A stretch of DNA of 64,000 bases from Taurinivorans muris (GTDB lineage: Bacteria > Desulfobacterota > Desulfovibrionia > Desulfovibrionales > Desulfovibrionaceae). Below the pieces are notes generated by a model that was not told the DNA's origin, ran no database searches, and saw only the letters and a program-made list of their open reading frames with translations. Shown here in pieces: positions 8,823 to 50,359 of the stretch (the first letter of the stretch is position 1; every line of letters starts with the position of its first letter). The stretch covers positions 1,240,001 to 1,304,000 of the forward strand of contig NZ_CP065938.1 of assembly GCF_025232395.1 (NCBI RefSeq), read 5' to 3'. Position numbers and translations under genes: made by a program.

Positions 8823-10163
<1,341 letters not shown>

Positions 10164-11588: not shown

Positions 11589-11990
11589 TCATTTTGAACG
11601 ATTAAAAGCAAAATATTTAAATAAGACGAACGTGCACAATGTTGTTAAAACTATTGCAATCAGTTGCCCGATAAGAACAGGAAAAGCGAAATATTGAACA
11701 ATCAGTTCCAAAGAAAGGGCGTTTATCCCATATCCGACGGACCATGAAATCATGCATTTCACATATTCTTTCAGCCAATTTCCCTTTGTTTGAAAAACAA
11801 TGGTTTTTTGCAGCACAAACGAAATAAAAGAAGAGAAAAACCAGGAAGCAAACAAGCTCGCCTGATAATTCTCTTCTCCTGACACCTTAATGAATAACGT
11901 AAACAATAAAAATGAAATAAGCGTGTTGCATATGCCGACAAACACAAATTTCATAAGCAAACGGCATCTATTTATCAGACTTTTACTCAT
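11589..11990 (-). CDS. gtrA: GtrA-family membrane protein (flippase-like)
   Basis: A 133-residue protein with four membrane helices and the GtrA-family opening (LMKFVFVGICNTLISFLLFTLF), including the conserved GxxNT; it ends with a final helix and a basic tail. GtrA proteins are thought to flip undecaprenyl-phosphate-glucose across the inner membrane. It starts four bases inside the end of the upstream 760-residue gene (ATGA), so the three gtr genes form one leftward operon. The locus is visibly richer in A and T than the flanking genes, which suggests acquisition by transfer. Confidence 0.85.
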   Translation of the reverse strand: MSKSLINRCRLLMKFVFVGICNTLISFLLFTLFIKVSGEENYQASLFASWFFSSFISFVLQKTIVFQTKGNWLKEYVKCMISWSVGYGINALSLELIVQYFAFPVLIGQLIAIVLTTLCTFVLFKYFAFNRSK

Positions 11991-14269
11991 TCATTTTCCA
12001 AGTGTTTTTCTTCCATAATTTTTAAAATCGCTTTCAACACCTCATTATCAAAATTAATAAAAATATACTTGTCCTGAACCAAGACAAAATCATTTTTAGG
12101 CCATTCTTTCATATTCTTCAATAAAGAAAAATACGGAACCAATTCCGTTAATAAGGTATCGACTGCTTTACTATGGGCTATAAAAACTTCTCCATTATAC
12201 GTATAGAGTTTATACGTCTTGTTCACATTTAAATCAGAATGGTAATATTTTGCAACATATGAAAAATGATATTCAAACAAAGGCATAGTCATAAAAGAAG
12301 ACTCATTCCATTTTCTTTTTTCTTTATACCATGTTAAAACATTTGATTCAAAATTTCCTAAAACAATAACTTGATATTCCCGATCATGAATATACAAAGG
12401 TGAATTTTCAATTTTTTCAAACACTGTTTCAAGCACTTTTTGTTCATGCTCAAAAGAAATTTTCCATAACTTTTGTGCATCATACAGCCTATAAATATTC
12501 ATAGGCAAAAGAAAAATTAAAAATACGATTAATATATTCTTTGCCCATACAAATTTACTTTTTAAAATAACAGCAACAAAAAAAGCAAACAAAAAGATAA
12601 CCCCATAAAAACTAACTCTTATCAGCCTCAAATCATTACCTAAAATAAATATTACAGCATTTGCAGCTAAAGGTAATAGGCATACACCAAAAACAGCAAG
12701 AAACAACTGAAAAATTTTTAATGAATGATATCTTATTTGATAAATAAACAACACTAAAAGAGCAAAAATATCGATAATCAATAATACCCATACAACGTTG
12801 CTATCGTAAAAAGGAACTGTATCGCTTAAATGACTGAAACTGCATTCTACAAGTTTCATAAACTGGTCAAGAGATCCGCCCAATAAATTCGTTGAAACGC
12901 TATATTCCAAAGCGTCAGCCCAAACCACTCCCGATACAATCAAAAAATGAATAATCACCTTAACAGTAATCAGGCTCAATACAATACAAAAAAAAGTTCT
13001 TATAACTTTTTTAAACAATAACTGTATGGATTGTTCTTCAAAACAATACATAACTATAATTTTTCCCAAAAACACAATTGCTATTGTATTTATTGCAGGA
13101 GCATATATTCCGAATGCAAAAACAAACAGCAAATAAGCTGAAAAAAAATAAAAATATGATTTTTTCTCTAATAATATCAAAGCAAAAATAACAATTGCCG
13201 GCAGCCATAAATGAGAAATCACATCAACACCGAAATAACACCAATAAATAACCAGCGGATTTAATACGACAACCAAGGAAAGAACCAAATAATTAAAAAA
13301 TGTCTTGGGTACATTCCAATAATATGCCAACAAAATCCCGGTAAACGAAAAACCGAATAACGCAAAAGAAACATTGACAATCGGAAGCAGTCTTCCTCCT
13401 AACAATTGATTGAATAAATAATTTGTATAGCGTCCATTAAACAAGGAACTTTTTCCCCACATGCCATCGATCAAATAAGACCAATCATGGTTTCCCCAAA
13501 GAAAATGCACATTATAATATAAAAACACAAGGTTCAGAATTATGAAAACAGTCCAAAACGTCTTTCTGTATACCCCGTCGATAGCATGATACTTCTTTAT
13601 GATGACAGTATCCCATTCATAATTGTTTATCAAACATTGCATTTTCTTTGGAAGATTTTTTTGAAAGAATTTTTCTGCAAATTTCTCACAGCAAATAAGC
13701 ACTGCTTCAATTTTTTCACGCCAGCAAACGAACAATACTGTTATTGAAAACAATAACGCGGCGATACCTGTTATAAATTCCGGAAGATAAATATTTCTCA
13801 GCATGAATTTTGTCTTATACTGGACAGTGAGGGAAAGACCTTGTTCTTTTTCCGCCGGTACGGAAACCACATACGGGCGTTCGAACCATACGGTCTGTTT
13901 TTTAGCATTATATGATTTTCCGTTTACGGTAATTTTTTTTATATCAACAGAAAATTTAATAACATTGTCACCGTCTTTTTTTTGCCGGCTGTACAATTTT
14001 AACTGGACAGCTTCATTGCCGGTATTTTGAAAATAAACGGTTTTTGTCCGATATAAAAATGTCGAAGGCAGGCTGACAGTAAAACTTCCGTCGTTATTTT
14101 CATCAACGGCAATGCCTTCTTCCTGCTCATCGGCACTTACACGTATCGGATTGTCCGCTGCAATATCCAAAAAAACAGTTTCATTGATATTACTGTGATA
14201 TAATAAAAACAAACCGGCAAGCAATAAAAAAAGAGCGGCAAAAGTTGCTAAAAACTTTTTTTGAAACAT
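11987..14269 (-). CDS. GtrII/GtrC-like membrane glucosyltransferase
   Basis: A 760-residue protein with about ten or more membrane helices. The segment NHDWSYLIDGMWG ... FNGRYTNYLFNQLLGGRLLPI (near 262-300) is the conserved acidic/GR region of the glucosyltransferase GtrII family. These enzymes transfer glucose from the lipid carrier to O-antigen at the periplasmic face. Unusual is a beta-rich, probably periplasmic domain (about 30-160) between the first and second helices. A soluble C-terminal domain (about 620-760) follows the last helix. Its place between gtrB and gtrA supports the role; the acceptor glycan cannot be inferred. Confidence 0.75.
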   Translation of the reverse strand: MFQKKFLATFAALFLLLAGLFLLYHSNINETVFLDIAADNPIRVSADEQEEGIAVDENNDGSFTVSLPSTFLYRTKTVYFQNTGNEAVQLKLYSRQKKDGDNVIKFSVDIKKITVNGKSYNAKKQTVWFERPYVVSVPAEKEQGLSLTVQYKTKFMLRNIYLPEFITGIAALLFSITVLFVCWREKIEAVLICCEKFAEKFFQKNLPKKMQCLINNYEWDTVIIKKYHAIDGVYRKTFWTVFIILNLVFLYYNVHFLWGNHDWSYLIDGMWGKSSLFNGRYTNYLFNQLLGGRLLPIVNVSFALFGFSFTGILLAYYWNVPKTFFNYLVLSLVVVLNPLVIYWCYFGVDVISHLWLPAIVIFALILLEKKSYFYFFSAYLLFVFAFGIYAPAINTIAIVFLGKIIVMYCFEEQSIQLLFKKVIRTFFCIVLSLITVKVIIHFLIVSGVVWADALEYSVSTNLLGGSLDQFMKLVECSFSHLSDTVPFYDSNVVWVLLIIDIFALLVLFIYQIRYHSLKIFQLFLAVFGVCLLPLAANAVIFILGNDLRLIRVSFYGVIFLFAFFVAVILKSKFVWAKNILIVFLIFLLPMNIYRLYDAQKLWKISFEHEQKVLETVFEKIENSPLYIHDREYQVIVLGNFESNVLTWYKEKRKWNESSFMTMPLFEYHFSYVAKYYHSDLNVNKTYKLYTYNGEVFIAHSKAVDTLLTELVPYFSLLKNMKEWPKNDFVLVQDKYIFINFDNEVLKAILKIMEEKHLENE

Positions 14270-14288
14270 AGTTTTTCACCTAAAAATT

Positions 14289-15230
14289 TTATTCGTCAAT
14301 ATTTATCAATTCATCAACAATATAGAGAGGTCTGTTTTTAACTTCTATCATAATCCTGCCGATATATTCCCCCATAATGCCTAAAGCTATGAGCTGAATA
14401 CCCCCGAAAAACAGAAGCAAAATAACCAAAGTCGGAAAACCTTGCACCGGATCGCCCCAAAGAATAGTTTTTATCAAGAAAAACAAGGCAATAACAAAAG
14501 AAACAAAAGCAATCCCCCCGCCTAAATAGGTCCAAACCCGAAGCGGCAGCGTGGAAGAGCCTGTTATTCCGTCCAACGCCAAATTCCATAATTTCCAAAA
14601 ATTGAATTTTGAATTTCCTGCAGCTCTGTCGGCATGGTTATACAATACGGGACAAGATTTATAACCGACCCAATTAAAAATTCCTTTCATGAAAAGATGT
14701 TTTTCCCGGATTCTTAAAACAGCATTGACGACTTTTCTGTCCATCAAACGGAAATCCGCGGCATTATACGGAGCTTTTTGCTCTGAAATCAAATTATAGA
14801 ATTCATAGAATTTTTTAGACAAAAATCTTCTGAGGCGTCCTTCATTTTTTCTGTTTTCCCTTACGCCGTAAACAATATCATAGCCTTCTTCCCATTTGGC
14901 AAGAAACGTTTTTATGGTCATCGGCGGATTTTGCAGGTCAACGTCAATAGGAATCACCGCATCTCCGGAGCTGTATTTCAATCCGGCATATAACGCCCTT
15001 TCCTTGCCGAAATTTCTTGAAAAACTGACAACTTTTATTCTGTTATCTTCTTCAGCATATTTTTTCAATATGTCCAGCGTATTGTCTTTGCTGCCGTCGT
15101 TCACGCAAACAATTTCATATTGATACGGACATTCGGCTAAAAATTTCCTCATTTCAGCGAAAAAAATATCAATAGCAGCCTCTTCGTTATACATCGGGGC
15201 TATGATTGAAATAAGCGCCTCTTCGTGCAT
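14289..15230 (-). CDS. gtrB: GtrB-type undecaprenyl-phosphate glycosyltransferase
   Basis: Family 2 glycosyltransferase that charges undecaprenyl phosphate with glucose (or a related sugar) on the cytoplasmic face. The N-terminal GT-A domain shows ISIIAPMYNEEAAI, VNDGSKDNT (nucleotide-binding DGS), FSRNFGKERALYAGL and IDVDLQNPP (the DxD-like site). Two C-terminal membrane helices (about 235-300) and the GEYIGRIMIEVKNRP ending are typical of GtrB. The 313-residue length is normal. It is the first gene of the gtr operon, and its upstream region contains the TA repeat. Confidence 0.9.
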   Translation of the reverse strand: MHEEALISIIAPMYNEEAAIDIFFAEMRKFLAECPYQYEIVCVNDGSKDNTLDILKKYAEEDNRIKVVSFSRNFGKERALYAGLKYSSGDAVIPIDVDLQNPPMTIKTFLAKWEEGYDIVYGVRENRKNEGRLRRFLSKKFYEFYNLISEQKAPYNAADFRLMDRKVVNAVLRIREKHLFMKGIFNWVGYKSCPVLYNHADRAAGNSKFNFWKLWNLALDGITGSSTLPLRVWTYLGGGIAFVSFVIALFFLIKTILWGDPVQGFPTLVILLLFFGGIQLIALGIMGEYIGRIMIEVKNRPLYIVDELINIDE

Positions 15231-15293
15231 GGTTTTCTCCCCTTTGCAGCAAACTGATTTTATCCGAAAAAATAGATTTGGAGCATAATTTAA

Positions 15294-15325
15294 ATATATA
15301 TATATATATTACGAAGAAAAATCAA
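15294..15325 (-). promoter_or_regulatory. Possible gtrB promoter containing an (AT)8 dinucleotide repeat
   Basis: On the minus strand a TTGATT hexamer (15325-15320) is followed, after 17 bases, by TATATA lying inside an eight-unit AT repeat (15294-15309), about 65-80 bases upstream of the gtrB start. If this is the promoter, slippage of the repeat would change the -35/-10 spacing. The rest of 15231-15440 is AT-rich with no gene. The promoter call is tentative; the repeat itself is plain. Confidence 0.45.
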
Positions 15326-15440
15326 GGATTTTTTTTGAATTGAAAGAATATGAGAAATAGACAACATTTTCTGATTTTGCTAAAAACAAAAAAGAAATAA
15401 AAACATACCGCAATAAAAAAAGGAAAAGATTGTATTTCTT

Positions 15441-16184
15441 ATGAATGAACTGTCAGCTTTTTTATATTTCTTCATAGGGCTTGCCGTAATTTTCGGAGGA
15501 ATTTTAAGAGGCATTTCAGGTTTCGGCTTTTCTCTGACCCTTATTGTCGCTTTAACGTTCTTTCTGCCCCCTTTGCAAGCGACAGCCCTTATTTTCATTT
15601 GGGAAATTTCCGCCAGCATTCTGCACCTGCCCTTTGTTTGGAAACATGTGGACTGGAACGCTTTAAAATGGCTTTGTGCGGGATGTGTTCTCGGTACGCC
15701 CCTCGGCGTTTATTCCCTCATCCTCATTCCGCCAACCCCCATGACAGTGCTTATCAATGCGACAGTTATCGTTTTAAGTATCGTCATGCTCAGAGGCTAT
15801 ACGCTGAAAAGAAACCTCAATGCTTTTGAAATCATAGGAACCGGCACAATTTCCGGGATTATCAACGGTGCGTCCGCAAATGGCGGACCGCCTGTCATTC
15901 TGCTTTTCTTCTCAAGCCCTGCCGGAGCGAATGTAGGACGAGCCTCGCTTATCGCCTATTTTCTCTTTACGGACTGTTTCGCCTCTTCCGTTTTAGCGGC
16001 GCAAGGACTTATGGGCGTTGAAATCCTCATCACGGCGCTTTGCTACATTCCCTGCCTTGCCCTTGGAATTTGGATAGGCACAAAACTCTATCACAAAATA
16101 GACGAACAAAATTTCAAACGTTTTGTAATGCTTTTGCTTATTGTCATTTCCGCCGTGGGCTGTGTCAAAGCGTTGCTGTCATGA
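15441..16184 (+). CDS. TauE/SafE-family membrane transporter
   Basis: A 247-residue protein with about eight membrane helices arranged as two related halves. The conserved first-half GILRGISGFGFSL and second-half ISGIINGASANGGPPVILLFF correspond to the TauE/SafE signature. Members are linked to export of sulfite, sulfoacetate or other sulfur-containing anions. That would suit a sulfur-metabolising organism, but the substrate cannot be read from the sequence. It is divergent from the gtr operon and ends at a bidirectional terminator. Confidence 0.85.
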   Translation: MNELSAFLYFFIGLAVIFGGILRGISGFGFSLTLIVALTFFLPPLQATALIFIWEISASILHLPFVWKHVDWNALKWLCAGCVLGTPLGVYSLILIPPTPMTVLINATVIVLSIVMLRGYTLKRNLNAFEIIGTGTISGIINGASANGGPPVILLFFSSPAGANVGRASLIAYFLFTDCFASSVLAAQGLMGVEILITALCYIPCLALGIWIGTKLYHKIDEQNFKRFVMLLLIVISAVGCVKALLS

Positions 16185-16226
16185 ACACAGCCCGCTGCTT
16201 GGCGTTTTTTTGTGCTCAAGCGTATA

Positions 16227-16998: not shown

Positions 16999-18849
16999 TC
17001 ATTTTTGCTTTTTCAATGCTTTTTTCAAAGAACGGCTTTGCGGCGAATTCGGATTTCGCAAAGCTGCCTTTATTGTCGTTCTTTTGCTCGGCTTCGCTTT
17101 CGCCTTGCCGGCGCCCGCTTTTTCCTGTTTCTCTTCTTTTGGCTCAACAGATTGGGGGTCCGCTTTCAATTCCGGCAAATCATTTTTCTTTTTGGAGCCT
17201 TTCCCGCTGTTTTTGGTATGGGAAGAACGCAAATGCACGCGCATGGGCGCATGCTCGATAGAAAATAAACGGCGGAGCGATTTTTCCAAATACCGCAAAT
17301 ACGATTCCCCGACCCTGTCCGCGTCGTTCACAAAAAAAACAAACGTCGGCGGTTCGCTTTCCGCTTGGGTCAAATAATAAAATTTGGGGCGCACACGCCG
17401 AACCACAGGGGGCTGATGTTTGGTCAAAACAATATCCATAGCCCGGTTGAGCTGTCCGGTGCTTACACGCACGCCGCATTCTTCCTTTATTTGTTCCGCC
17501 ATGGGCAAAAGCATTTTCAAGCCGTAACGGTTTTTAGCGGAAGTCGGCATGACAGGCACATGCTGACAAAACGCCAAGGTTTCGGAAAACTGTTTTTGCA
17601 GCGCTTTCCTCGCAGGAGCAGGCACCAAATCCATCTTATTCAAAATAATGAGAAAAGGCGTTTTACGCTCGTCAAGAAGTTCCACAAGCCTTTTATCCTG
17701 CGCCGTCAAACCTTGCAGGGCGTCAATCACCAAAAATGTCACATCCGCTTTGGTGGTGCTTTTTAAAGATGAATTAACAGAAAAACGCTCCACCGTATCA
17801 AAAATCTTTGAACGACGCCGGACTCCTGCCGTATCCACAAAAACATACTTTTTTCCGTTCCAAAGCAAAGGCACGTCAACGCTGTCCCGAGTCGTTCCCG
17901 CCAAATCGCTCACAATCATACGCTCTTTTCCCACAAAAGCGTTCAAAATAGAGGATTTTCCGGCATTAGGCCTGCCCAGCAGACAAATCTTCAAAGGACC
18001 CTGCTTTTGATTTTTTTCCCTTTGGAGCTGCGGCAAGTCCAAATCAATGTTTTCACTTTCTTCATCTTCGCCGCTCAAAGCAAATTCCTGCTCTGCTTCA
18101 ACATCATTTCCTGACTGCAAAAATTCCGCTTCGGCAAAATCGACAAGATAATCTTCCGGATTTTCATTTTCAAAACCGGTATCCGCATAATCAGTATTTT
18201 CTTCCTGATTTTCGGCATGATTTTCTTCTTTTAATGCCCGTTTATCCGCTTTGTTACCTTTTTTCCGGACAATTTCCTCATCTTCTTCCTGCAAAGCGAT
18301 TTCTTCTTCGTCAAAATCCGGCAATTCGGGAAGCAAATCGACCATCAGACTTTCCAAATACCGAATTTGATTGCCATGTTCGGCGGAAACCGCCACAAGA
18401 GGAAAACCGAGCACATGAAAATCGGAACACATCAGCTCTTCTTTTTCCATGCCGTCCACTTTGTTGACAATAAGCAAAACCGGCTTTCCAAGCTTGCGGA
18501 TATAGGCTGCAATATGCTCGTCAAAAGGCATGAGCCCGTCACGTCCGTCAACCACCAAACAAATCGCACACGCTTCCTGCATGGCTTCTTCAGCCTGCCG
18601 CAAAATTTCCTTTTCAAAACCGCGTATGCCCTCGGGACCCTCCGCCACCTGCGAGTGGCTGTCAAGCGTGATTCCGCCTGTGTCAATCAAAACAAAAGGA
18701 CGGTGGAACTTGCTTTTTACCGTACCTTCCATTCTGTCGCGCGTTATGCCCGCCCTGTCGTGGGTTATGGCGCGGTTGCTCCGGATAAGTCTATTGAAAA
18801 GGGTTGACTTGCCCACATTGGGACGCCCCATTAAGACAATTTTATACAT
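16999..18849 (-). CDS. der: Ribosome-assembly GTPase Der (EngA) with long acidic linker
   Basis: Tandem-GTPase needed for assembly of the large ribosomal subunit. The first G domain begins MGRPNVGKSTLFNRLI and has DTGG and NKVD; the second has LLGRPNAGKSS (about residue 290), DTAGVRRRSK and NKMD. A KH-like domain follows and the tail is highly basic (Lys/Ala-rich, about 555-616). The linker between the G domains (about 180-285) is long and strongly acidic, making the protein 616 residues against roughly 440-490 usually. I chose the ATG at 18849 (GAGG upstream) over a GTG two codons earlier. Confidence 0.93.
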   Translation of the reverse strand: MYKIVLMGRPNVGKSTLFNRLIRSNRAITHDRAGITRDRMEGTVKSKFHRPFVLIDTGGITLDSHSQVAEGPEGIRGFEKEILRQAEEAMQEACAICLVVDGRDGLMPFDEHIAAYIRKLGKPVLLIVNKVDGMEKEELMCSDFHVLGFPLVAVSAEHGNQIRYLESLMVDLLPELPDFDEEEIALQEEDEEIVRKKGNKADKRALKEENHAENQEENTDYADTGFENENPEDYLVDFAEAEFLQSGNDVEAEQEFALSGEDEESENIDLDLPQLQREKNQKQGPLKICLLGRPNAGKSSILNAFVGKERMIVSDLAGTTRDSVDVPLLWNGKKYVFVDTAGVRRRSKIFDTVERFSVNSSLKSTTKADVTFLVIDALQGLTAQDKRLVELLDERKTPFLIILNKMDLVPAPARKALQKQFSETLAFCQHVPVMPTSAKNRYGLKMLLPMAEQIKEECGVRVSTGQLNRAMDIVLTKHQPPVVRRVRPKFYYLTQAESEPPTFVFFVNDADRVGESYLRYLEKSLRRLFSIEHAPMRVHLRSSHTKNSGKGSKKKNDLPELKADPQSVEPKEEKQEKAGAGKAKAKPSKRTTIKAALRNPNSPQSRSLKKALKKQK

Positions 18850-18951
18850 ATACACCTCATCGGGGGTGAAAATTATTTTAATAATAACATTCTGTTTTAG
18901 CTATATCTTTTTTTTATTCTTTTGTCTATTCTTGAAAGAGAGCAAAAATTT

Positions 18952-44353: not shown

Positions 44354-45757
44354 CTAATTCTTTTGCAAATATTCACCGCTCCAACAGCCGGTACAATACT
44401 GCATACCCTCGTCACCAAGGCAAGCCCGCATACCTTCCAAGGACAAATAGCCCAGACTGTCCATATTCAAAATGGAACGTATTTCCTCAATAGTATGCTG
44501 ATAGGCGAGCAATTCTTCATAATGGGGGAAATCGACCCCAAAATAGCAAGGATACTGCACAGGCGGGCAGGCAATTCTCAAATGCACTTCCGTCGCCCCC
44601 GCATCACGGAGTTCTTTGCCAAGAGCCGCCGTCGTTGTTCCGCGGATAAGGGAATCGTCCACAAGGCAGACCCGTTTTCCACGCACGACTTCTTTCACGA
44701 CATTGTGCTTCATGCGCACGGCGGCAGCTCTCGCGCCTTGTCCCGGAGCGATAAAACTGCGTCCTATGTAGTGGTTGCGGATAAGTCCGCGGTCAAGCGT
44801 TATGCCGAGTTCTTCCGCAAAACCCATGGCGGCTGAAAATCCGGAATCGGGAATCGCAACCACGATATCCACATCGACCGGTTTTTCCTTCGCAAGCATA
44901 TGCCCTGTTTGACGGCGGAAAACATGGGGAGTATGCCCGAAAACAGTGCTGTCGGGACGGGCGAAATAGATAAGTTCCAATAAACAGCGCTGCTGGCGGA
45001 CCGTTCTGTCGCCAAAATACGTGGAACGGTAACCGCCCGCCGTAAAGGTCAGCATTTCTCCGGGTTCGACTTCCCGCTCGAAAATCGCCCCGATTTGGTC
45101 AAAAGCGCACGTTTCGGAGGCAACGACATATCCGTCTCCCATGCGCCCGAGCACCAAAGGACGATAGCCCCAAGGATCGCGGGCGGCAATCATTTTATTG
45201 CCGAAAAGCAGAACAACCGCAAAAGCGGCTTCCGCCTGTTCAAAAACACTGGCGATATCTTCATCGGAACTCGCTTGCTTTTGGGCTAACAGCTGCAGGA
45301 AAAATTCACTGTCACTCGTTGTCTGCAAAAAAGCCCCCGAAAGAAGAAGCTTTTCCCGCAATTTTTCCCCGTGGTATAAATTTCCGTTATGAGCAAGAGC
45401 GACCTGCCCTTCGCTGTAATATCCGATAAGGGGCTGGGCGTTGGCTATGGTGCTTGAACCCGCCGTGGAATACCGGACATGCCCGATTGCGGAATTGCCT
45501 GCCATATTGCGGCCTTCTCCATTACCGAACACGCTGGAAACCAAACCCATGCCGCGGTGGATGAATATCTGTCCGTCGCTGGCGCTCGCGACACCGGCGG
45601 ATTCCTGCCCGCGGTGCTGCAAAGCGTGCAAAGCCAATGAAGCATGCTGGGCGGCGTCTTTTACTCCGTAAAGCCCCACAATTCCGCATTCATCATGCGC
45701 CTTGTCATCATACGTCAAGGTATCAGGGATAAAGATGTTTCCAAAAGAATTATTCAT
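44354..45757 (-). CDS. purF: Amidophosphoribosyltransferase PurF
   Basis: Commits PRPP to purine synthesis by forming phosphoribosylamine. The N-terminal glutaminase has its nucleophile Cys in [11 protein letters not shown]; residues before it (about 23) look like a cleavable propeptide. The glutaminase continues [31 protein letters not shown]. The PRPP site is [18 protein letters not shown]. Extra Cys residues ([22 protein letters not shown]) match the 4Fe-4S cluster of the Bacillus-type enzyme. The ATG at 45757 overlaps the carB stop by eight bases; an upstream start at 45784 is less likely. Length about 467. Confidence 0.96.
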
Positions 45758-48700
45758 TTGTTTTTCCTTGAATATATCCTGCATAATAATCCTGCAAAGG
45801 AGCGACTATGCGTTGTTCTTGCCGACGGGCTTCCAAACCTTCGACAGTGGCGCGAAGAGCCGCCAGTGTCGTAATGAGGTTGATACGGCGGGCGAGGGCT
45901 TCCGTCCTTATGGTGTTTGCGTCACGGGCGGAAGTCGGACCGCTTACGGTATTGACAATCATATTCGCCTCACCGTTGCGGATGAAGTCCAAAAGGTGAG
46001 GGCGCTGCTGTCCGATTTTTACAATAAGCTTGCAGTCAATGCCTTTGTTTTCAAGCATGGCTTTTGTTCCGGGAGTTGCGTAAAGCGTAAAGCCAAGGGC
46101 TTTCAGGCGTGCCGCAAGAGGAACAAGAGGTTCTTTGTCTTGGTCCGTTACCGTCAGAATGACATTGCCGGATACCGGAATGGGGACTCTTGTGCCGGCC
46201 TGGGATTTAAGGAAAGCCATGCCGAAGCTCCTGTCAATGCCCATAACTTCGCCAGTGGAACGCATTTCAGGTCCGAGCTGGATTTGCGTTCCGGGGAAAC
46301 GCTCAAAAGGAATGACCGCTTCTTTTACCGCGCTGTACATAAGTTTCGGTTCTTCCGTGAAATTCACATCCTTCAAAGAAAGCCCCGTCATGATTTTTGC
46401 CGCAATGCCCGCGACATTGCGTCCTGTCGCCTTTGAAACGAAAGGCACGGTCCTTGACGCCCGCGGATTTGCTTCAATGACGTACACGCTGCCCTTGTAA
46501 AGAGCCATCTGAATGTTCAGTAAGCCCACAGTATGCAAGGCTTTGCCGAGTTTATCGGTATAAGAACGGATAATACCTTTCACTTCATCGCTCAGCGTAT
46601 GGGTCGGGATAGAGCAGCAGGAATCGCCCGAATGGATGCCCGCTTGTTCGATATGTTCCATAATGGCGGCAATGGTCACCTTATCGCCGTCAACAACGGC
46701 ATCGACATCTATTTCAATGGCTTCTTCAAGGAATTTATCCACCAAAATAGGAGTATTGACGCTCAGATACAAACCGGTTGATTTATCCTCAATATATTCA
46801 ATAAGTTCCTGTTCATTATGAATGATACGCATTGCGCGGCCGCCGAGCACAAAGGACGGACGCACCATGACCGGATACCCGATTGTTTCCGCGAGCCTGC
46901 AGGCAGTTTCAAGGTCGACAGCCATACCGCTGGCGGGCTGCAAAATATCCAAATCCTCAATCAGGGCGCTGAAATCCTCACGGTCTTCCGCAAGAGCGAT
47001 ATCCTGAGGCTTCGTGCCGATAATGGGAACGCCCGCTTCCTGCAATGCCATGGCGATATTGAGCGGAGTCTGTCCGCCGAACTGCACAATCACCCCGTCT
47101 GGCTTTTCAGCGTGGCAGACGGCAAGCACGTCTTCCGTCGTCACCGGCTCGAAATACAAGGTATCCGCCGTATCATAGTCAGTGGAAACCGTTTCGGGGT
47201 TCGAGTTGATCATAATGGTTTTTATACCGAGTTCACGCAGGGAAAAACACGCCTGCACGCAGCAATAGTCAAATTCCAATCCTTGCCCGATACGGTTCGG
47301 ACCGCCGCCGATGATAACGACTTTGCGCGCAAAACCGCGTGTTGCGGCGCCCACATGGGCTGTATGCAGCGGATCGGGAGAAACCGCATCGTACGTTGAA
47401 TAAAAATAAGGCGTATGGGCTTCAAATTCCCCTGCACAGGTATCAACAGTATGAAAAACGGGCTCGACGGCATTAATCTCGCGCAAAGAGCGGATATCCG
47501 TTTCACGCACTGTTTTCGCAAGGCTTTCGGAGCAAAGGTTCGCAATGCGGGCGTCGCTGAAACCTTGCGCTTTATAATGACGCAGTTTCTTTGCGAAAGC
47601 GGCATCGGCGGCTTTGCTGTTCACCGCCTTTTCTATTTCATGGCAAAAATCTTGGCGTATGGAATTTTCATCATCCAAAATACGTTTGATCTGCAGCAGG
47701 AACCAAGGGTCAATGCCGGTAATCTCATTCAGTTCCTCAACTGTCAAACCAAGCTGCATGCCTTCGTAAACAAGCAAAACCCTGTCAGGACGGCGAAGAT
47801 ACAATTTTTCCCGTATCCATTCGCGGCGGGCGGCGGGTTCAATGGGGGCTTCCGCTTCCAATTTGCCGTTTTGCAAGCCTTGCAGCCCTGTTTCAAGTCC
47901 GCGGAAAGCCTTTTGCAAAGCCTCGCGGAAATTGCCGCCAAGAGCCATGGTTTCCCCGACGGAATGCATTTGGAAACCAAGCGTCGTGTCCGCTCCTGTG
48001 AATTTTTCAAAATTGAAGCGGGGAACTTTGACGACACAATAATCGATGGTAGGCTCAAAACAAGCGGAAGTGCCGGTAATATCATTCTTTAATTCATCCA
48101 AACGATAGCCGAGGGCAAGTTTCGCCGCGATACGGGCGATAGGGAAACCGGTCGCCTTGGAAGCCAGGGCGGAAGAACGGGAAACCCGGGGGTTCATTTC
48201 AATAACGACGCGTCTGCCTGTTTTCGGACAAACGGCGAATTGAATATTGCAGCCGCCGGTTTCAACGCCGATAGCCCGCACGACGCGGAATGCGTCCTGA
48301 CGGAGCGCTTGATATTCCGCATCGGAAAGGGTTTGAATAGGAGCGACGGTAATGGAATCGCCCGTATGCACGCCCATAGGGTCAAGGTTTTCAATGCCGC
48401 AAATGACAATGGCGTTGTCCGCCTTATCGCGCACAACTTCCAATTCGATTTCTTTCCAGCCGAGCACGGATTCTTCAATCAAAATTTGGCTGATGGGCGA
48501 TGCTTCGATACCGCCCTTGGCGATTTCCTTAAATTCTTCAATATTGTAAGCGATACCGCCGCCGGTGCCGCCCAAGGTATAGGAAGGACGGATGATGACA
48601 GGGAAGCTGATTTCTTTTATTGCGTCCATGGCTTGTTCAAACGTGGTCGCAAGGGCGCTTTTCGGCAAATCAAGCCCGATGGCTTCCATGGTTTCACGGA

Positions 48701-49094
48701 ATTTTTGGCGGTTTTCCGCAAGTTCGATGGACTTTGGCTGCGCCCCGATAATTTCCACGTTGTATTCTTCCAAAATACCCATATGGTGCAAATCCATGAG
48801 CAAATTGAGAGCCGTCTGCCCTCCCAGTGTGGGCAAAATGGCATCGGGACGTTCCTTTATAATGATTTCAGCCGCCATGAACTTATTCATGGGCTCGATA
48901 TATGTTGCGTCGCTAAAAGCCGTATCTGTCATAACAGTAGCCGGGTTCGAGTTCAGCAAGACAATGCGGCACCCTTCCTCTTTCAGTGCTTTCAACCCTT
49001 GTGTGCCAGAATAATCAAATTCTGCCGCCTGTCCGATCACAATCGGACCGGAACCAAGCACCATAATCGTTTTCAGATCTTCACGCTTCGGCAT
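45750..49094 (-). CDS. carB: Carbamoyl-phosphate synthase large subunit
   Basis: Makes carbamoyl phosphate for arginine and pyrimidines. The 1114-residue protein has the two homologous ATP-grasp halves (first from [21 protein letters not shown]; second from [21 protein letters not shown]) and the oligomerisation region between, then the C-terminal allosteric methylglyoxal-synthase-like domain ([21 protein letters not shown]). I chose the ATG at 49094 with AAGGA upstream. It lies between carA and purF on the same strand, so pyrimidine/arginine and purine entry steps share one operon. Confidence 0.97.
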
Positions 49095-49148
49095 TTCTTT
49101 AAAATCCTTCTTAGTAGATACTACCAATAATTATGGCAAAAGCCACTG

Positions 49149-50315
49149 TTATTTCTTATAAAAATCATCAACCATAGTACGGAAAGCGTCAAACAAACCG
49201 TAAGCGTCCCAAGTTCCCGGAGCGGCTTCCGGATGGAATTGCACGGAAAAGACCGGGGCGTCGGTCAACGCCAAACCCTCGACAGTATTGTCGTTCAAAT
49301 TCCAATGGGTCACTTTCACATTGCCGGGCAGCGTCTGAGGGTCAACACAAAAACCATGGTTCTGACTTGTGATAAGAACCTTTCCTGTCGCCACATCCTT
49401 TACAGGGTGATTAAGCCCATGGTGACCGAAAGGCATTTTGAAGGTTTTCGCACCCATGGCAAGGGCGATAAGCTGATGTCCCAAGCAAATTCCGAAAATA
49501 GGCAATTTTCCGACCAATTCCCGTATTGTTTTTATGGCGTAGCCGCAAGGCTCCGGATCTCCCGGACCGTTCGTCAGCATGACGGCATCGGGCTTGGAAG
49601 CTAAAATTTCTTCTGCTGTCACAGTGGCGGGATATACGGTCGGGTGCATGTTATTATTGAATAAGTGAAGCAAAATCGAACGCTTGGCACCATAATCGAT
49701 AACGGCGACATTGAGCATTTTCTTGGAGGTGTCACGTTTTTTATACGTCAGAACAGTGCCGGGGTCAGTATTGAAGACGAATTTTTCTTTTACAGTCACT
49801 TTTGAAGCAAGATCAAGCCCGGACATTTGAGGAAGCTCTTTCGCCCTTTTCAATAAATAATCGCGGTCCAAATTGGTGCTGATAATGCCGTTTCTCGCCC
49901 CATGCATACGCAAATGCAGCGTCAGAGCGCGGGTATCGATTCCATAAATGCCGCTCAATCCCATTTGCTCCAATTTTTTTTGCAGAGAACTCTCGGCACG
50001 GAAATGCGGAAAATCAATATTTTCCGCATCAACAAACAAATCATGAAAAACAACGCCGCCCGCACCGTATTCCGGCTTCGGTTCGGGACATTCGCTGTCA
50101 AGAGCCGTTGCTCCGTAATTTCCTATATGCGCGGAGGTAAACACTACGATTTGTCCGTAATAGGAAGGATCGGTAATCGTTTCCTGGTATCCGCTCATAC
50201 CTGTTGTGAAAACGACTTCGCCCACAGCCTCCTGACAAGCCCCCAAGGCGTATCCTTCAAAACATGTGCCGTCATCAAGCATCAATAAAGCCGGCATTTT
50301 TGTATTGATAGTCAT
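49149..50315 (-). CDS. carA: Carbamoyl-phosphate synthase small subunit
   Basis: Glutaminase subunit that supplies ammonia to CarB. The 388-residue protein shows the N-terminal domain (LLMLDDGTCFEGYALGA; GEVVFTTGMSGYQETITDPSYYGQI; SGIYGIDTRALTLHLR) and the class I amidotransferase domain with the nucleophile in FGICLGHQLIALAMG and the His/Glu in VQFHPEAAPG. I chose the ATG at 50315; the next in-frame ATG at 50297 is also possible. It starts the carA-carB-purF unit. Confidence 0.96.
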   Translation of the reverse strand: MTINTKMPALLMLDDGTCFEGYALGACQEAVGEVVFTTGMSGYQETITDPSYYGQIVVFTSAHIGNYGATALDSECPEPKPEYGAGGVVFHDLFVDAENIDFPHFRAESSLQKKLEQMGLSGIYGIDTRALTLHLRMHGARNGIISTNLDRDYLLKRAKELPQMSGLDLASKVTVKEKFVFNTDPGTVLTYKKRDTSKKMLNVAVIDYGAKRSILLHLFNNNMHPTVYPATVTAEEILASKPDAVMLTNGPGDPEPCGYAIKTIRELVGKLPIFGICLGHQLIALAMGAKTFKMPFGHHGLNHPVKDVATGKVLITSQNHGFCVDPQTLPGNVKVTHWNLNDNTVEGLALTDAPVFSVQFHPEAAPGTWDAYGLFDAFRTMVDDFYKK

Positions 50316-50359
50316 AATCTTTCCGTTTTTGTTTGATTGTTGATAAAACAAAATAATTT

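Follow-up and report, generated by a model that had tools for sequence, protein, structure and literature searches.

An (AT)8 tract upstream of gtrB in Taurinivorans muris as a candidate contingency locus within a genome-wide set of AT tracts

The gtr locus and its (AT)8 tract

The window analysed here (the whole 64 kb stretch of T. muris DNA) holds three reverse-strand genes, gtrB, a GtrII-type glucosyltransferase gene and gtrA, which diverge from a TauE/SafE exporter gene (Table 1). Gene functions, here and below, were taken from Pfam and PHROGs models, and the Pfam matches bear out the identification of a gtr locus in the preliminary description. The gap between gtrB and the GtrII gene is 19 bp and the GtrII and gtrA genes overlap by 4 bp, which indicates that the three genes probably form one operon. 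Their predicted joint function is the glucosylation of a surface glycan.

Table 1. Features at the gtr locus, in window coordinates.
Feature	Position	Strand	Evidence or remark
gtrA, flippase-type membrane protein, 133 aa	11589..11990	-	Pfam PF04138, E 3.9e-17
GtrII-type glucosyltransferase, 760 aa	11987..14269	-	Pfam PF14264, E 2.7e-13
gtrB, family 2 glycosyltransferase, 313 aa	14289..15230	-	Pfam PF00535, E 6.8e-35
GGGGAG, likely gtrB ribosome site	15237..15242	-	sequence
TATATT, candidate -10 at downstream tract edge	15293..15298	-	inferred
(AT)8 tract, 16 bp	15294..15309	.	sequence and TRF
TATATA inside tract, -10 implied by the preliminary description	15297..15302	-	17 bp from TTGATT
TTGATT, candidate -35, weak (4/6 match to TTGACA)	15320..15325	-	not above shuffled sequence
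CTGACA-16-TACAAT, rival promoter-like site inside TauE gene start	15429..15456	-	score 10.3
TauE/SafE exporter gene, divergent neighbour, 247 aa	15441..16184	+	Pfam PF01925, E 2e-26

The GC content is 34% in the operon (11589–15230), 24% in the 210 bp intergenic region and 45% in the window. The low value of the operon relative to the window suggests that the operon was acquired. Phage carriage of the locus was considered, and a scan of viral contigs gave no relative of GtrB.

Eight AT units had been described between a TTGATT box and the start of gtrB, and this is exactly what is found. The tract is placed between the start codons of the two divergent genes, 64–79 bp upstream of that of gtrB and 132 bp from that of TauE, and no other AT run in the window exceeds 7 bp. 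Several other roles for this region were rejected. The frame entering gtrB has a stop at the tract and no upstream start codon, which excludes a coding-type switch, as does the good ribosome site of the start at 15230. A structured RNA was dismissed because no Rfam match with an E-value up to 1 was found in 15000–15700. As for an invertible promoter, 15200–15460 contains only arms of 9–15 nt, half of which are the tract's own palindrome.

The same gtr locus is present on a contig of MAG UBA8003 (41,030 bases; best segment 99% identity). PMC10507020 assigns this MAG to T. muris, and its contig is also that of genome G001, so that two T. muris genomes enter the comparison. Among the 50 loci with gtrB relatives that were fetched, a single one, from the same species, has an AT run of at least 10 bp within 300 bp upstream; in the other 49 the tract was not found. 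The stretch around a 47% gtrB relative in another genome of the genus (G004) likewise has no AT run of at least 10 bp. Between the two T. muris genomes, intergenic differences around gtrB amount to two indels (three bases in all) in T runs. Variation of the repeat number among strains had been put forward as a mark of a switch; both genomes carry eight units (16 bp), which counts against it, with n = 2. On contig C192 of the second T. muris genome (G001), a one-base insertion opposite window position ~14969 breaks the gtrB frame, either by inactivation or through an assembly error. Given this broken frame, the gtr locus may be decaying in that genome.

A genome-wide set of AT tracts

The T. 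muris genome (2.17 Mb, single contig) contains 28 AT tracts of 14–18 bp. Their lengths are narrowly distributed, with 19 tracts of 16 bp, four of 17 bp, three of 15 bp and one each of 14 and 18 bp; a genome-wide search found none of 12–13 bp. In a 318 kb sample, the counts fell from 460 runs of 5 bp to two of 9 bp, followed by a gap, with no tracts of 10–11 bp within the sample, and then by the peak. In a sister species (G002), 19 tracts of 14–18 bp were counted, and its 106 kb sample repeats this gap and peak; both length samples were chosen to contain tracts. Runs of at least 15 bp numbered 27 in T. muris, versus 0.0003–0.15 predicted per 2.17 Mb by Markov models of order 1–5 trained on the 64 kb window. 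The (AT)8 tract and the set to which it belongs thus exceed chance.

Other dinucleotides were searched genome-wide (AG) or in the 318 kb sample (AC, GT, CT and CG). Long AG tracts came to one of 16 bp and one 11-mer. The (AG)8 tract, the sole long one genome-wide, lies at genome position 499205–499220, about 4 kb from the ManC gene that is split by an AT tract.

An AT 16-mer is present in 11 of the 149 family genomes drawn. Most hits fall in T. muris (17), the sister species G002 (16) and the second T. muris genome (13), and the other genus genomes have none (G003 and G004) or one (G005). Four genomes from other genera of the family (G011, G104, G119 and G130) carry one or two AT tracts of at least 16 bp each. 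Loss of mismatch repair was rejected, since MutS_I is present in T. muris; it occurs in five of the six genus genomes and is missing only in one that is 80% complete. The presence of MutS counts against switching, as it should damp dinucleotide slippage.

By our reading, half of the 28 tracts lie in coding sequence and half upstream of genes. Seven of the coding tracts are in frame, in the genes for RgpF, two methyltransferases, a radical-SAM protein, a phage-side paralogue and two AT3-SGNH O-acyltransferases. The other seven are out of frame, in the genes for ManC, an amidohydrolase, a radical-SAM protein, an unknown protein, two phage-side paralogues and a GGDEF protein. The upstream tracts precede genes for two autotransporters, PagL, glycosyltransferases, an MBOAT acyltransferase, GtrB, a hybrid histidine kinase, amidohydrolases and others. 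The upstream class includes tracts 665383, 678217 and 1051189, which at first seemed to be coding; here translation probably begins beyond the tract, or the ORF occupies a different frame of an adjacent gene.

Genes with a surface function by Pfam name (surface glycan, lipid A, O-acyl or autotransporter, sorted by hand) make up 11 of the 28 tract genes, the second acyltransferase among them being placed by alignment. In the window baseline, one or two of 43 do so (Fisher p 7e-5 to 4e-4). This baseline comprises the scanned ORFs outside the gtr operon, 43 of the 50 window ORFs, excluding the three gtr genes and the ORFs at 8850–10163, 16999–18855, 45750–49127 and 49149–50351.

The position of the tract differs within the AT3-SGNH acyltransferase family. 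It lies at residues 160 and 172 in T. muris and at residues 268 and 271 in G002, and two close paralogues in G002 have no tract. The differing sites suggest more than one origin, and the tracts of this family probably arose repeatedly. Together with the surface bias of the tract genes and the lack of long AT runs at other gtrB loci, this speaks for selection over drift. Three phage-side paralogues stand in tandem at genome position 743178–744492, near tail-fibre and baseplate genes, each with its tract four codons after the ATG (18 bp and in frame in one, 16 bp and out of frame in two). They are possibly phase-variable phage tail parts; the tract-bearing proteins matched no PHROG, and the paralogue protein was not found in viral contigs. 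Two methyltransferase paralogues of equal length (14495–15214 and 15473–16192 of their stretch) differ in that one has a 16 bp tract where the other has a different sequence of the same length. Their equal length makes the tract there unlike a plain insertion.

Part of the set has a recognisable promoter arrangement. Considering 47 tracts from two species on both strands, an exact TTGACA, from 1 bp of overlap to 7 bp upstream, adjoins 11 of 94 tract sides. Of 2252 control sides, taken at short AT runs from those stretches, 11 have such a box (odds ratio 27, p = 1.2e-10). All 11 of the boxes beside tracts point at a nearby ORF start. At such sites the tract would fill most of the spacer, and slippage would change the hexamer that stands 17 bp from the -35 box. 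For example, the autotransporter tract 55955, now 15 bp long, would give TTGACA-17-TATAAT at 21 bp, and the present 16 bp of tract 254057 give TTGATG-17-TATAAT.

Tract lengths are assembly values, and their comparison covers two T. muris genomes, of which one is a fragmented MAG (80% complete). Seven tracts were comparable: four, including that at gtrB, were equal, and three were longer in the second genome by exactly one AT unit. The flanks of the compared tracts are 95–100% identical, except for the left flank of tract 329694 (68 bp at 91%), where a separate alignment spans the tract (484 bp at 97%). Two pairs were left out of this count: 743839 (16 vs 20 bp), where tandem paralogues blur orthology, and 40138, because of a scaffold gap. 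The second genome yielded no ManC, which is uninformative at 80% completeness, and most of the glycan cluster at 665–681 kb was unmatched there, so that its tracts were not comparable. At the GGDEF gene, a 17 bp tract puts an upstream ATG (after GGAG) out of frame and a 19 bp tract puts it in frame; the two genomes therefore differ in predicted state. In the genome analysed here, the gene may instead start at an ATG that the end of the tract creates.

A 13-mer search of the second genome found 11 whole tracts, all of 16–20 bp, and a twelfth split by a scaffold gap. This gap, an N run, lies inside the AT tract on contig G001:C238 (stretch 330–675), and perhaps reflects reads of differing length that could not be assembled.

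Considering the non-random lengths, the adjacency to TTGACA and the one-unit differences in three of seven tracts, slippage switching is well supported for the tract set as a whole.

Promoter geometry at gtrB and alternative explanations

In contrast to the clear promoter class, no exact TTGACA stands beside the gtrB tract. The TTGATT box of the preliminary description is present 10 bp from the tract, and its role as a promoter box is less secure, given that it matches TTGACA at four of six positions and does not exceed chance. The idea that a -10 box inside the repeat makes the switch is not supported in that form: a wholly internal -10 such as TATATA keeps its 17 bp distance from TTGATT whatever the length of the tract. 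With TATATT at the downstream edge, the spacing is 21 bp at eight units and 17 bp at six. With E. coli promoter frequencies as weights, the best tract-touching promoter scored 7.3. When the intergenic region (210 bp) was shuffled 300 times by mononucleotides, the best scores had a median of 8.8. A tract of six units would bring TTGATT-17-TATATT to 10.9.

We lean, with modest confidence, towards an explanation in which the (AT)8 tract, as a contingency locus of the genome-wide AT set, would switch the gtr genes through promoter or leader geometry. Replication slippage would add or remove AT units, as we infer for gtrB. Where a tract lies inside a gene, a change in unit number would shift the reading frame, and where it lies upstream, it would alter promoter geometry. 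The gtrB tract would accordingly be a promoter- or leader-type switch, acting on/off or by tuning. In the working geometry, TTGATT would serve as -35 and the edge TATATT as -10, with eight units weak or off and six units on. The output would be surface glycosylation by the products of gtrB, the GtrII gene and gtrA, presuming that these are co-transcribed and that tract length affects their expression. The argument for a switch at gtrB comes mainly from the position of the tract and its membership in the set, and the promoter detail is put forward as a hypothesis. For the slippage switch as originally suggested, the set-wide marks and the one-unit variation of three in seven tracts speak in favour, and the equal length of the gtrB tract, the weak promoter match and a better-scoring site upstream speak against it.

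That upstream site, CTGACA-16-TACAAT (15456–15429), could itself drive gtrB, in which case the tract would lie in the 5' leader, about 115–130 nt into the mRNA, with little or no effect of its length. The site matches the consensus at 10 of 12 positions, no site in the consensus scan uses the tract, and its score of 10.3 exceeds the 7.3 of any tract-touching site. However, mononucleotide shuffles (300 bp) put the 90% point at 11.5, above that score, and the scan returned 15 sites versus 9.6 in shuffles. Because this arrangement would also leave the presence of a member of the genome-wide set at this position unexplained, we regard it as unlikely, while giving it real weight. Alternatively, the tract might switch nothing and be either a neutral microsatellite or a fixed-length, AT-rich promoter element of an acquired AT-rich locus. 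The low GC content of the operon and especially of the intergenic region is consistent with this, as is the equal length in both genomes. Yet composition fails to predict such runs, and neutrality does not fit a set with members inside coding sequence and next to TTGACA, in which other tracts vary by whole units; we consider this account quite unlikely.

The target of the tract could also be the divergent TauE gene, with or without gtrB. Its location between two start codons resembles the hifA/hifB layout, as given in an excerpt of the Haemophilus influenzae literature (PMC2651432). However, the best promoters in the intergenic region on the TauE strand (7.2 and 7.0) do without the tract, the tract-using TTGGAG-17-TATATA scores 5.2, and the TauE start is 132 bp away, making a role in TauE expression decidedly improbable. 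We give still less credit to an active process that creates AT tracts, each about eight units long, at new positions and maintains them, the gtr tract being one product. Such a process would explain the empty range of 9–14 bp in the stretches read from two species, the 16 bp peak and the differing acyltransferase sites. Finally, the preliminary description stated rightly that gtr loci of Salmonella are phase-variable by another mechanism; an excerpt of PMC2909390 names OxyR and Dam methylation for Salmonella gtr operons. Variation of the T. muris operon by the same means is barely conceivable, since GATC is absent from the 210 bp intergenic region and from 14.8–15.8 kb of the window.

Relation to known phase-variable systems

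The closest parallel is the hif locus of H. influenzae, where, according to the excerpt cited above, (TA)9–11 lies between hifA and hifB, with a proposed effect on the -35/-10 spacing (PMC2651432). The two loci share a TA tract of comparable length flanked by divergent genes, of which one is related to the cell surface, and the TTGACA-adjoining tracts elsewhere in the T. muris set are a close fit to the hif geometry. At gtrB, by contrast, the genes and phylum are different, the weak -35 is separated from the tract by 10 bp and the tract belongs to a set of 28; spacing of the hif type holds there only if the edge TATATT is the -10. The gtr locus resembles that of Salmonella and phage P22 in that gtrA, gtrB and a specific glucosyltransferase gene occur together by Pfam, and differs from it in the gene order (gtrB, GtrII, gtrA), the lack of GATC and the AT tract found instead.

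Simple-repeat phasomes comprise many repeat-linked loci of coding and promoter types, mostly surface modifiers, as outlined in excerpts of PMC11868660 and PMC2651432. The T. muris set is like those of Neisseria, Campylobacter and H. influenzae in these respects. The repeats described in the excerpts are mainly tetranucleotides in H. influenzae and G/C homopolymers in Campylobacter (PMC8355987), whereas the long dinucleotide tracts of T. muris, a gut bacterium of the Desulfovibrionaceae, are nearly all AT and narrowly of about eight units. Phase variation of a phage receptor-binding protein by repeat slippage has been described by Sorensen et al. (as quoted in an excerpt of PMC11868660). The three tandem tract genes beside a tail fibre gene at 743–744 kb are similar to that case; they lie outside the gtr locus, and their tract-bearing proteins match no PHROG.

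Among the matches listed in a literature search confined to papers outside subscription, there was no report of repeat-driven phase variation in Desulfovibrionaceae. The T. muris set is a candidate simple-repeat phasome whose kind of repeat and host were not met among the matches listed. According to an excerpt of PMC10507020, the complete genome of the isolate T. muris LT0009, almost certainly the strain analysed here, was obtained from Illumina and Nanopore reads; since the isolate can be grown, switching could be tracked in culture.

As a candidate phasome, the set spans many loci, relies on one simple repeat and occurs in a cultured bacterium of the mouse gut that is not known as a pathogen. 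The presence of a diguanylate cyclase and of hybrid histidine kinases among its targets would tie surface variation to signalling.
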